Assembly (NCBI GenBank): GCA_019163335.1
Contig: JAFLKM010000053.1
Coordinates: forward strand, 62,001 to 126,000
Source of the DNA: Desulfobulbaceae bacterium
Lineage (GTDB): Bacteria > Desulfobacterota > Desulfobulbia > Desulfobulbales > Desulfocapsaceae
DNA length: 64,000 nucleotides
Direction: 5' to 3'
Part shown: piece by piece, positions 28,592 to 32,821 of the stretch
Numbering within the stretch: position 1 is the first letter of the stretch
How the letters are laid out: every line of letters starts with the position of its first letter
Made by a program: the position numbers and the translations under genes
The notes under the pieces: generated by a model
What the model was told of the DNA's origin: nothing
Seen by the model: the letters and a program-made list of their open reading frames with translations, nothing else
Database searches by the model: none

Positions 28592-31336
28592 TTATTTTGC
28601 CGGTTTCTTATCGTATGGTTCCAGATTTTTGTTAGCTGGGTTGTAAAGGAAGCTGATTTTCAAGGAGGTTGATTTGTCAGCCTCCTGGTGAAAGCACTGG
28701 AGGGTGAACAGGAGCTTTTCACCTATCTTCTTTTGAAAAGCAGCCTCAGGTTTTGAAAGGTTTTCAGGTCGCAGGTCGGGGTTGTTTTGGACAAAAAGAG
28801 TTTGGAAGTTTTCATTCAGGTACGAAATTCGTTCCGCAATCAAGCGATTCTCTTGGGCTTGATAGGCAGAAGTCAGAATTTTCTGACCCGTGACCTCAGC
28901 CTCCTGTTCGTTAAGAGAGGCGTCATTGCCGTAAAAACTCCATTTTTTTGTGGCTGGATCGTACAAATAGCTTGCCTGTAGAAGTACGGGCCGGCCATGG
29001 CCCTGTTCAAAGCACTGAATTTTATAGAGTGATTTGTTGCCGATTTTTTTGAGAAAGGATACGCGAGGATTTGATAAATTGTCAGCGTTGAGTGACGGGT
29101 TGTTTTGGGTGAGAAGTTTTTGGTAGTTTTGGGTCAAGTAAGAAATATGTTCAGAGATAAGAAGGTCTTCCTGGGCCTGATTGGCCGAGACCCTTGCCTC
29201 CTTTGTAATTGTCTGAAACTCCTGTTCGTTGGCAAAAGGGCTCTTGTTGATCGTGTCGATCACCGCCTGCAGTTTGTCGATTGCTTCATTGAATTCCTTG
29301 TTCTTGAGGTGGTTGGCCGCACTTTGCTTGTCTCTGATGACTGCGGCATGGAGCATGAGCCTGGAAATCTTCTGCTGGCTCTGGAGAGGATTGTCGCGGC
29401 GTAGAATCTCACTGTTTTCCTCCAGAAGTTGCTTGGCAGTTTCATAATAATTGATGGCTTGATCCCACTGGGCATCTGTAAAGGCCTTTCTCCCTTGCTC
29501 CAGAGACTTGAATATCTTGGTTCTGATAATATTCTCTGCAAGTGCGTTGTGGCTTGACGTATCTGAAGAGGGGAATGTTTGCTCCTTCACCTGTGCCTGT
29601 TCAAAGGCACTAAGGGCATTGCCCCAGTCCCCTTGGGCAAGATATTTTTCTCCTGCGGTGATGAGGGTGTTTAGCTCGACCTGACCAATGAGTGATTTAA
29701 TCTTAGTGAGGTTTGTCGGGGATATCTGGGAATTTTTTCTGGCGATCTCCATAGCTGTATTCAAGTGATTTTTTGCCAAGTCCCACTCAGACGCATCCAG
29801 GGCCTGTTCACCTGCCTCGAGAGCAATGCTGAATTCGGCTGTTGCCATATTGCTGTGAATTTGATCAAGGATGGCGCGATCAAAGGCCGGGATATCGGAG
29901 GCAAGCTGGAGGGTGTGAGTATATCCGGTCAAGGCCTCTTTCCATTGGCCATCGGCCAGATATTTACTGGCGAGCTTGAGAGATTCCTGCCACTTCGGCA
30001 TGGCGTTGGAGTTTTGACCTTTACTGATGGCCAAGCCTTGCTGGAATCTCTCGGAGTCCTGAAGCTGCTTGATCTCTTGGACAAGGACTGCTTTCTCCTC
30101 TTGCTTGATAAGCATAATCCTGGATGTCTGCTTCAAGGCGTCCGCACATGTGCGTTCGGCATCGCTGAACCGGCCGGTATCCACAAGTTGCTTGCACTCA
30201 TCCAACGTGGTGAGCGCTTGCTTGAATTGGGCGTTGAAATAAAAATACGTTGAGCCCAGAATGAGCAGAATACTCCCGACGCCCACACCAAGGGCTATAA
30301 CCGGCCAACGGGAAGACTGCCCTTTGGCTGGTTGCATAGGAGCAACAGGGGGTGGGTGGATGGGCTCTTTTTTCCCCGAAGATTTTAATGCCGTTCCATT
30401 TTTGTTTTTATTCGACTCCTCCAAAGCTGAGTCATCTGCTGCCCAGTCGCCAAGCATTTCCACGGAGTATTGAGCGCGAGCGATGTCTTTATCGATTTCT
30501 GGAAAATTCGGGGCCAGAGTTTTTACCGTTTGATATCTCTCGAGTGCCCTTGCAGGTTGTCCCTGATGTTCAAACGCTTCTCCTTCCTGGTGTTTTTTCC
30601 GGGCTTCATTCAGCTGTTGTTGTGCTTCCTGGTTCAGGCCGGGACTTGAAACCGGCCCTTGCGATGCAGGAGAAGAATGCTCCAGGGAGAGGAGAGGTTC
30701 TGCGGTTGTCCTTGTGGCGAGGTCGGGAACAGTTTTTTCTGGGTGGTTCCCGCCGTCAAAGGCATCTGTTGCCTGATTCTCATTGTGTGGGAAAAGGATA
30801 TCATCTACAATATCGATGGTCAGGAGCTCTGAGTCACCCGCTGTGGGTTGCTGTTCAGGATGTGACAGTCTCGTCTCGGCTGACGTCGGGTCAACAGTAT
30901 CCAAGGGCAGGTTCTTCTTATTCTCTTTATACCAGATCGCTGCTTCTTCATTGAAGGCATTGTTGGTTGAGTAGATCTCACCGCAGAGCATGCGGCCAAT
31001 GTGAATGATCAAATCGGACAGAGACTGGTTGTTTTCCCAAAAATCACTGATGCAGATGGCCGCCTGATCGAAATCAGGATGGAAAACAGGGGTTTCCGGC
31101 TTGCAGTTGGGGGGGAAGTGAGGAAATCCAAACGGGAGATTGAGGAGAATGATATGATCAGTGCAGGTCTGGACTTCAGCCCCAGTCTCTTTGCAGAGCC
31201 CCCGCAGATGATAGGTGATTCGGTACTGTTCAGGGGGGGAACCGCCAAGGGGAAGAACCTGAATCTGACGATGTTGGCCAAAATTGGTTTTGATTTCCAG
31301 GAAAATGGCTTCCAGTTGTTCAGAAAGGATGGTCAT
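28592..31336 (-). CDS. Membrane protein with ubiquitin-conjugating (E2)-like head, TPR-like repeats and duplicated C-terminal module
   Basis: The product has 914 residues. Residues 1-140 resemble an E2 fold: a PPEQYRITYHL strand, then FPHFPPNCKPETPVFHPDFD, then AAICISDFW with Cys95 in the catalytic position, then SLSDLIIHIGRMLCGE and FNEEAAIWYKE, parallel to the E2 helix that ends NPEAA-x-x-Y. The HPN motif reads HPD (86-88). A low-complexity linker, a TPR-like pair (about 240-290), one membrane helix (about 344-366) and a long run of helical repeats (370-710; motif QWxxAxxxYxxA) follow. Residues about 716-805 and 822-908 are a tandem duplication (ISYLxxNxQxLxxQNNPxL). Repeats flank the helix on both sides; topology is unclear. 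No E1, ubiquitin-like or JAB gene adjoins. Confidence 0.72.
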   Translation of the reverse strand: MTILSEQLEAIFLEIKTNFGQHRQIQVLPLGGSPPEQYRITYHLRGLCKETGAEVQTCTDHIILLNLPFGFPHFPPNCKPETPVFHPDFDQAAICISDFWENNQSLSDLIIHIGRMLCGEIYSTNNAFNEEAAIWYKENKKNLPLDTVDPTSAETRLSHPEQQPTAGDSELLTIDIVDDILFPHNENQATDAFDGGNHPEKTVPDLATRTTAEPLLSLEHSSPASQGPVSSPGLNQEAQQQLNEARKKHQEGEAFEHQGQPARALERYQTVKTLAPNFPEIDKDIARAQYSVEMLGDWAADDSALEESNKNKNGTALKSSGKKEPIHPPPVAPMQPAKGQSSRWPVIALGVGVGSILLILGSTYFYFNAQFKQALTTLDECKQLVDTGRFSDAERTCADALKQTSRIMLIKQEEKAVLVQEIKQLQDSERFQQGLAISKGQNSNAMPKWQESLKLASKYLADGQWKEALTGYTHTLQLASDIPAFDRAILDQIHSNMATAEFSIALEAGEQALDASEWDLAKNHLNTAMEIARKNSQISPTNLTKIKSLIGQVELNTLITAGEKYLAQGDWGNALSAFEQAQVKEQTFPSSDTSSHNALAENIIRTKIFKSLEQGRKAFTDAQWDQAINYYETAKQLLEENSEILRRDNPLQSQQKISRLMLHAAVIRDKQSAANHLKNKEFNEAIDKLQAVIDTINKSPFANEQEFQTITKEARVSANQAQEDLLISEHISYLTQNYQKLLTQNNPSLNADNLSNPRVSFLKKIGNKSLYKIQCFEQGHGRPVLLQASYLYDPATKKWSFYGNDASLNEQEAEVTGQKILTSAYQAQENRLIAERISYLNENFQTLFVQNNPDLRPENLSKPEAAFQKKIGEKLLFTLQCFHQEADKSTSLKISFLYNPANKNLEPYDKKPAK

Positions 31337-31744
31337 GAAGGCTCACTGATCTTTAAATTAAAGGAGAGTTTTTTGCCATTTTGCCTGAAAATGGAGTCTC
31401 GCCATGATGGGATTGACGGGATCAGTTTGATAATACCTTCAAGTAATTAGCAAAAATATTGACGTAAGTGTAGCAGATTTTGAGAAGAAGAGGAATTTTT
31501 TTATTTCTTCGGTAAATAATCGAATGTCACGGTTCTCACAGGAGCAGACCTTTGTTCTCAGGATGCCAAAAGAGTTGGTTAACGGCCCATGAACATTTAT
31601 TTCCTAGGATGGGCCAGAGGGAGAAAGAGGTATGAAATACAGCTCTTGTATATATATAATGGAAATAGAGGGGCTGGAAACAAGGCGTCTCATCTCGATG
31701 ACGCTGGACGGCACCTTGATTAAAATTCTTGATTGTAGCAGGAT
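31337..31744. other. Divergent promoter region between the E2-like gene and the cNMP-fold gene
   Basis: About 400 bases without a gene. An AT-rich TATATATAAT lies at 31651-31660, a possible -10 for the rightward gene, but no good -35 is seen. No repeat is evident. Confidence 0.4.
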
Positions 31745-32821
31745 ATGAAATCTTTTCAGATCTATTTTGAGATTATCGAAGACACCCGGTGTCCTTTTTA
31801 TAAGGTTGGCGAACAGTTGATTTTATCGGAAAAGGCCCTCTTATGCCCCGGCAATAAAGAAACTTGTCTGATCCTGGTCAGGGAGATGACCCAGTTATTG
31901 TTTAAGTTTCTTGCGGTGGACCATGAAAGTCTTATTACAGAGAAACCGATTTTTAGCTGTAGCGGTTGTTCGGGGCTGATTAAATTTACACCGATGGTAA
32001 CGCCCGACAATGCCTTGGGCGAAAAAGAAAAAAAGGCCGTGCTGGGAAACAGGGAGCAGAGGCTTCTGGAGAGGATTCATTCTTTCCCTTTGATTCAACT
32101 CATCCCTGAAGATGAGTTGAGAAGCTTTGTGGGACGGTTTCAACAGGAACTCATCCAAGAAGGAAAGGTCTTGATTCATAAAGGAGAATCGAATCTGTAT
32201 CTGTACATGATCCTTGCAGGACAAATGCTGGTGATGGATGGGCCGGTGGTGATTACGTCCCTGGGGCCGGGTGAGATCTGCGGGGAAATGAGCTATCTCG
32301 GAGACGATGTGGCGGCTGCCACAGTCAGGGCCTTGTCGGATACGGAGGTGATTGCTGTATCCAGCATTGATTTTAATTATCTCCTTGATCGGCTGCCTGC
32401 GTTGCAGAACTATATGGCCCGTCTCTTAGCCCGTCGCCTGAACAGGGTGAACAAGGCCAGGGCGGAAGACTTCGCCTCCTGTATGCAGGGCAGGTTGCAG
32501 GATATGGCCCCTGCTGAACTGTTTCAGATCTTTCATATGAATAGTAAAACCGGGGTGTTGTCCCTCGACCTACCGCGTGGCCCGGGCAAGATCTCGTTCC
32601 GCGAAGGGTGTATCATTAATGCCCATTATCGAGAACAGGATAATGAGGAGGCGATCTTTGCCATGCTTGGCGAGCACGAAGGTACCTACAGATTTACCCT
32701 CGGCTTGTCGCCGCAAGAGATGAAAGCGGCAGAAATCGGCGATTTCATGAAGCTGCTCATGGAGGGAATCAAGCGGGTGGATGACGTGCAGGAGGGGAAA
32801 CAGGACAGTCGTGTTAAGTAA
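31745..32821 (+). CDS. Cyclic-nucleotide-fold sensor with N-terminal Cys domain and C-terminal DUF4388
   Basis: The product has 358 residues. The N-terminus (1-85) has RCPFYKVGEQ, two more Cys (34, 41) and FSCSGCSGLIKF, resembling the TIGR04076 small-protein fold. Residues about 115-235 are a cNMP-binding barrel (VLIHKGESNLYLYMILAGQM, then GEICGEMSYLG). In the phosphate cassette the usual Arg-Ala-Ala reads VAAAT, so cAMP or cGMP binding is doubtful. Residues about 245-345 match DUF4388/PATAN (MQGRLQDMAPAELFQIFHMN, then GVLSLDL and ISFREGCIINAHY). There is no DNA-binding domain, so it likely works by protein contact. It is divergent from the E2-like gene, which suggests but does not prove a link. 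Confidence 0.8.
   Translation: MKSFQIYFEIIEDTRCPFYKVGEQLILSEKALLCPGNKETCLILVREMTQLLFKFLAVDHESLITEKPIFSCSGCSGLIKFTPMVTPDNALGEKEKKAVLGNREQRLLERIHSFPLIQLIPEDELRSFVGRFQQELIQEGKVLIHKGESNLYLYMILAGQMLVMDGPVVITSLGPGEICGEMSYLGDDVAAATVRALSDTEVIAVSSIDFNYLLDRLPALQNYMARLLARRLNRVNKARAEDFASCMQGRLQDMAPAELFQIFHMNSKTGVLSLDLPRGPGKISFREGCIINAHYREQDNEEAIFAMLGEHEGTYRFTLGLSPQEMKAAEIGDFMKLLMEGIKRVDDVQEGKQDSRVK

Follow-up and report, generated by a model that had tools for sequence, protein, structure and literature searches.

A membrane-anchored E2-fold protein family of the Desulfobulbales, probably a scaffold without a role in conjugation

A 64,000-nucleotide stretch of a Desulfobulbaceae genome (assembly GCA_019163335.1, contig JAFLKM010000053.1, positions 62,001 to 126,000; hereafter the window) encodes a 914-amino-acid protein (28592..31336, complementary strand) in which a domain with the fold of ubiquitin-conjugating enzymes (E2) is fused to a membrane helix and an arm of tetratricopeptide-like repeats (TPR). 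Coordinates refer to the window, and all features of this gene lie on the complementary strand. The protein belongs to a family of the order Desulfobulbales that has kept the E2 surface and has lost the catalytic cysteine in several lineages. We consider it probable that its members are inner-membrane, UEV-like scaffolds built on the E2 fold, most likely not engaged in conjugation. Nothing was found in the published literature on this membrane-anchored family.

The original prediction had read the N-terminal domain in the order of an E2, and profile searches and structure comparison agreed with it. Scanned alone, residues 1–145 (30902..31336; predicted to be cytosolic) matched the Pfam family UQ_con with E = 4.6e-6 and 26.7 bits, just missing the curated cut-off of 27. 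When 46 homologous domains were scanned individually, UQ_con was the only Pfam family matched, by 44 of them (best 2.9e-9). The Pfam models Prok-E2_A to E gave no match, although a missing match to a hidden Markov model is weak evidence, and the UEV model gave none at E 0.01, at a divergence where such scans can miss. A single-sequence phmmer search of the PDB returned ubiquitin-conjugating enzymes (best 2.4e-4), as did a profile of the 46 family members, with UBE2C as the best match at 2.3e-8. In the profile alignment, HPD fell on the HPN motif of E2s, Trp100 (31037..31039) on the Trp of the E3-contact loop, and Cys95 (31052..31054) on the catalytic cysteine, where it had been predicted to lie. 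The loop at the HP motif and Cys95 was one residue shorter than in E2s. An AlphaFold2 model of residues 1–150 (pLDDT 92.3, pTM 0.88) contained a helix, four strands and further helices in E2 order, giving the alpha-beta(4)-alpha fold with HP loop that characterizes the UBC/E2 superfamily. Among the matches listed by Foldseek for this model in the PDB, all were E2s or E2-containing complexes, and VIA-align placed 128 residues on the best structural match, UBE2S, at 2.5 A with Z 14.0. Profile search and structure comparison of this region had been set beforehand as checks, and neither contradicted the prediction. Chance resemblance was ruled out by the agreement of profile, structure and conservation across the bacterial family, and the E2 fold of residues 1–145 is established as far as computation allows.

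Conservation was counted over 102 distinct domains of the family, and a tree was built from 101 domains. H86 and P87 of the HPN-like motif (31076..31081) were unchanged in 102/102 domains, as were P72 and P76; Tyr38 and Trp100 were each altered once, leaving Trp100 in 101/102. At the position of the HPN Asn, 95 domains had Asp and two had Asn. The window copy is among the former, in keeping with what had been predicted for it. Cys95 was retained in 81/102 domains and elsewhere replaced by Arg (10), Pro (3), Ser, Ala, Tyr, Lys, His or Asp. On the tree, the cysteine state changed seven times, six of these changes being forced by well-supported branches. By parsimony, the Cys95 column changed 11 times and ranked 48th of 149 columns by conservation, against no change at H86 and P87 and one at W100. 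Loss of the residue can leave the domain otherwise intact, as in a member from the same genus as the window copy that has Tyr at this position (genome G014). A second paralogue of about 540 amino acids occurs in some species, and every one that was aligned lacked the cysteine. Neither a family-wide catalytic cysteine nor an HPN motif with Asn, both to be expected of an active E2, was thus present. The E2 fold without the catalytic cysteine that marks UEVs was found in 21/102 relatives and not in the window copy, which has Cys95. Replacement of the cysteine in 21/102 domains, with the HP motif and Trp100 near-invariant, favours the stand-alone or inactive scaffold that the original prediction had offered as one option.

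No E1 or JAB gene was matched anywhere in the window, and none is linked to the E2-like gene in an operon; ubiquitin-like genes were not searched by profile. The remark in the original prediction that the usual partners are missing holds for E1 and JAB; it passed over a conserved divergent neighbour, described below. In the window's own genome, the E1 and JAB matches resembled, by eye, a TcdA-type gene located near tatD, a further gene of the ThiF type and a RadC-like JAB. JAB peptidases above the cut-off were absent from 14/18 Cys-bearing genomes tested (the window's own included) and present in 4/11 Cys-less ones, and counts of ThiF genes were similar in both groups. The presence of Cys95 is not mirrored in the E1 and JAB genes of the genomes. 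An ordinary conjugation operon was ruled out on these grounds: no linked E1 or JAB, ThiF and JAB counts unrelated to the cysteine, and own-genome matches that look ordinary by eye. The other option originally put forward, an undescribed conjugation or targeting system, finds little support as far as conjugation is concerned, and appears unlikely for the Cys-bearing lineage. A defence system was also considered and rejected; PADLOC gave no match for the E2-like protein, and its results for the neighbouring protein (cyclic-nucleotide-domain matches to Pycsar-type proteins) are not diagnostic.

The remainder of the protein follows the architecture first proposed, namely one membrane helix, TPR-like repeats and a duplicated tail. 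A TPR motif at about residues 249–290 (30467..30592; Pfam TPR_2, TPR_14 and TPR_19) lies between the E2 domain and the single membrane helix (residues 346–364, 30245..30301), which was recognized by its hydrophobicity. Together, helix and TPR solenoid are features of membrane-anchored TPR proteins. Basic residues stand N-terminal of the helix here and in homologues (N-in), so the E2-like end is predicted to be cytosolic and the rest periplasmic. The model of residues 366–914 (pLDDT 89) shows a solenoid of helical hairpins that gave TPR matches (29237..30241), presumably periplasmic, followed by two alpha+beta tail domains at residues 703–802 (28931..29230) and 809–908 (28613..28912). Cys381 and Cys397, C-terminal of the helix, are nearly invariant among homologues and would be compatible with a periplasmic disulfide. 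The tail copies were 48% identical over 100 amino acids (E = 1e-31). Most members of the same genus have the second copy; matches from other genera stop near residue 805, so copy 2 looks like a recent duplication.

A homologue was found in 66/97 relatives, and 61 of these 66 had the E2 domain. Loci bearing names came chiefly from Desulfocapsa, Desulfofustis, Desulfopila, Desulforhopalus and Desulfobulbus, along with Desulfobulbaceae metagenome-assembled genomes. They include the cultivable species Desulfofustis glycolicus and Desulfopila aestuarii, the latter with Ser in place of the cysteine. Among 395 genomes drawn phylum-wide there were 12 matches, ten of them inside the order. The contig scan relied on a narrow peptide pattern and on the best 80 of 145 loci, and the distribution beyond the Desulfobulbales is under-sampled. 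Its neighbourhood in the main lineage is a conserved block of dsrAB-type genes, S-adenosylhomocysteine hydrolase, kdsD, a HAD gene and secDF. Because this chromosomal block is conserved, the gene is core-genome content, in contrast to the sporadic E2 operons of Iyer et al. 2006. Vertical inheritance within the Desulfobulbales is the best reading of this distribution. The gene is a unit by itself, with kdsD convergent on its 3' side and a divergent gene on its 5' side.

That divergent gene (31745..32821, forward strand) is directly upstream of the E2-like gene, separated from it by 31337..31744 in an arrangement that is conserved. Its product has a cyclic-nucleotide (cNMP)-binding domain and a DUF4388 domain (both Pfam), preceded by an N-terminal 'CPxYxxG' region that matched no Pfam family. 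We take DUF4388 to correspond to the PATAN domain. Searched with its N-terminal region, the gene was found adjacent in 46/61 relatives with the E2 domain. Homologues scoring at least 55 bits were confined to genomes that encode the E2-like domain; a more remote paralogue, located elsewhere in the genome, is widespread. The pairing was kept even where kdsD, HAD, SecDF and dsr genes were all missing nearby (loci L044–L046, L111, L137, L142 and L143). We presume that the two proteins are partners. In six independent pairs differing in the cysteine, the neighbour mostly followed it, at a median p of 0.125; co-loss of Cys95 and the neighbour is not significant. Among cyanobacteria, PATAN domains form part of response regulators whose presumed target is the type IV pilus (PMC7690835).

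The repeated loss of the catalytic cysteine and the lack of ubiquitin-type partner genes led us to regard a docking platform, not a conjugating enzyme, as the probable role of the E2-like protein. The fold, the architecture, the turnover of the cysteine and the gene pairing are computational results. The trans-envelope scaffold that they best support, with its binding partners, ligand, topology and cellular role, is inferred, as follows. The E2-like domain would face the cytosol and hold a protein partner at the classical docking face, formed by the HP loop and the region of Trp100, as is the case for UEV proteins, for example Mms2 or Tsg101. On the other side of the membrane, the TPR solenoid and tail would bind envelope proteins. 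The cNMP/DUF4388 protein may serve as the regulatory partner, coupling the complex to a signal of the cyclic-nucleotide type. A bolder version would make of this platform, its periplasmic arm and its cyclic-nucleotide-binding partner a core receptor for signalling or quality control wholly outside ubiquitin-like conjugation, so that bacteria would have put the E2 fold to a 'UEV-like' use independently; taken furthest, this version has the Cys-bearing clade still conjugating without a dedicated E1, JAB or ubiquitin-like gene. We regard this extended version as speculative and rather unlikely.

Several observations weigh against a non-conjugating scaffold with a fixed partner. The adjacent cNMP/DUF4388 gene is absent in 15/61 relatives with the E2 domain, and the topology is predicted only from charge and hydrophobicity. 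The window's own protein has Cys95, and so do 75/80 tree rows of the main Desulfocapsaceae clade, which exceeds what would be expected of a wholly useless residue. The cysteine may therefore be constrained in that clade, and for this reason we retain as a rival an enzyme in the Cys-bearing lineages. There, a house-keeping E1 of the ThiF, MoeB or TcdA type would hand a ubiquitin-like protein or a sulfur carrier to Cys95, for the modification of membrane proteins, with the Cys-less paralogues as regulators, as UEVs are for Ubc13. Besides the catalytic position of Cys95 and its frequency in the main clade, this proposal can draw on the cysteine of early-branching Desulfurivibrio-like members, on the ThiF-family proteins encoded by the window's own genome, and on a distant relative (G427, locus L160) that has both the cysteine and a true HPN and adjoins a Prok-RING_1 gene. 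We nevertheless judge it unlikely, given the Asp at the HPN position in 95/102 domains and the repeated loss of the cysteine in genomes that yielded no Cys-bearing partner copy (e.g. G014 and G019). It also has to contend with the lack of a linked E1 or JAB, the absence of JAB from most Cys-bearing genomes tested, the similar ThiF counts, and the ordinary TcdA/ThiF-type and RadC-like appearance of the own-genome matches. Some other cysteine chemistry in the Cys-bearing clade, such as redox sensing or a persulfide carrier without protein conjugation, would suit hosts that are Desulfocapsa-like sulfur-cycling bacteria with dsrAB-type genes in the window, and would fit the cysteine in 75/80 rows; members with Arg, Pro or Tyr persist in similar organisms, however, and we hold this to be very improbable.

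Gene neighbourhoods suggested that the protein might be an adaptor for membrane AAA+ proteases, delivering or protecting their substrates, with its E2-like domain and TPR arm presenting proteins to machines of the FtsH or Clp type. In one genus, Cys-less paralogues of 530–550 amino acids directly follow clpS-clpA (L048:5894-10423 and L056:6071-10618), and at two related Desulfurivibrio-like loci an AAA+/M41 protease gene lies about 1.8–2 kb upstream (L044 by Pfam, L143 by sequence likeness). A clpB gene is present at L045, and at L054 an FtsH-type M41 gene apparently shares an operon with homologues of the TPR arm that lack an E2 domain. The main, window-type locus, however, has no protease gene nearby, the pattern was spotted post hoc in about four events, and with one to five M41 genes per genome, one should now and then lie nearby by chance. 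The protease link is a lead that is suggestive only, and an adaptor role appears distinctly unlikely.

Some of these loci had further unusual features. The protein encoded upstream of the E2-like and cNMP/DUF4388 pair at L044:4245-6713 and L143:5595-8063 has 822 amino acids, with two AAA regions and Peptidase_M41 (by Pfam at L044, by likeness at L143). The apparent operon at L054:8889-14610 includes a NapC-type cytochrome in addition to the TPR-arm homologues and the M41 protease. In the distant genome G427 of the same phylum (L160:8936-11093), the relative with Cys and HPN has 367 amino acids and a UQ_con score above threshold; the adjoining Prok-RING_1 gene is a membrane gene, and DnaJ-domain, AAA and subtilase genes are nearby. 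This E2-RING neighbourhood was seen in one of 46 genomes of its order and not in the other 45, and a conserved system could not be demonstrated. Another lineage of the phylum encodes a 1061-amino-acid relative (L161:6757-9939, complementary strand) that has HPN without the cysteine in its E2 domain and many more TPR-like repeats before the membrane helix.

Known bacterial E2-like proteins come mostly from sporadic, often defence-related conjugation operons. The family resembles the eukaryotic E2s (UBE2S, UBE2C and UBE2D; PF00179, UQ_con) in its complete E2 fold (Z 14), its HP motif, a Cys at the catalytic position and the E3-contact Trp. It differs from them in having HPD instead of HPN, a cysteine that is not conserved across the family, a fused membrane helix and TPR arm, and no linked E1 or JAB. 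Ubiquitin is not known from these bacteria. With the prokaryotic E2-like proteins, namely types 6a–6e of Iyer et al. 2006 (PMC1779556) and the CBASS E2-E1 protein (PMC10097602), the family shares a bacterial E2-fold domain, and an inactive E2/RWD-like domain is already known from type 6e (PMC1779556). Whereas those genes are found in operons of sporadic occurrence, together with E1, JAB or ubiquitin-like genes (PMC1779556, PMC10097602), the Desulfobulbales gene stands by itself in a conserved block of the chromosome and is inherited within its order, and its product is membrane-anchored. The operonic partners that mark ubiquitin-like conjugation operons (Iyer 6a–6e, CBASS E2-E1 and Bil) are not seen: the window contains no match to E1 or JAB, and ubiquitin-like genes were not searched by profile.

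The conserved neighbour, if DUF4388 is PATAN, has a counterpart in the PATAN/DUF4388 signalling proteins. PixE, LsiR and PixG of type IV pilus control (PMC7690835) share this domain with it; the neighbour has a cNMP-binding domain in place of their response-regulator receiver and is paired with an E2-fold membrane protein. As a presumed partner that is conserved, it offers a concrete entry point to the system. Cys-bearing and Cys-less orthologues, in turn, form a natural series for probing other uses of the E2 fold. There is also a parallel with the UEVs (Mms2/UBE2V2 and Tsg101), which like 21/102 of the bacterial members have the E2 fold without a catalytic cysteine; the window copy, by contrast, keeps the cysteine, and no Pfam UEV match was obtained at E 0.01, in scans that can miss one at this divergence. 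A vertically inherited, single-gene family of membrane proteins in which the cysteine varies and the docking surface stays constant suggests that bacteria, too, can use the E2 fold as a plain interaction module, comparable to the UEVs of eukaryotes.
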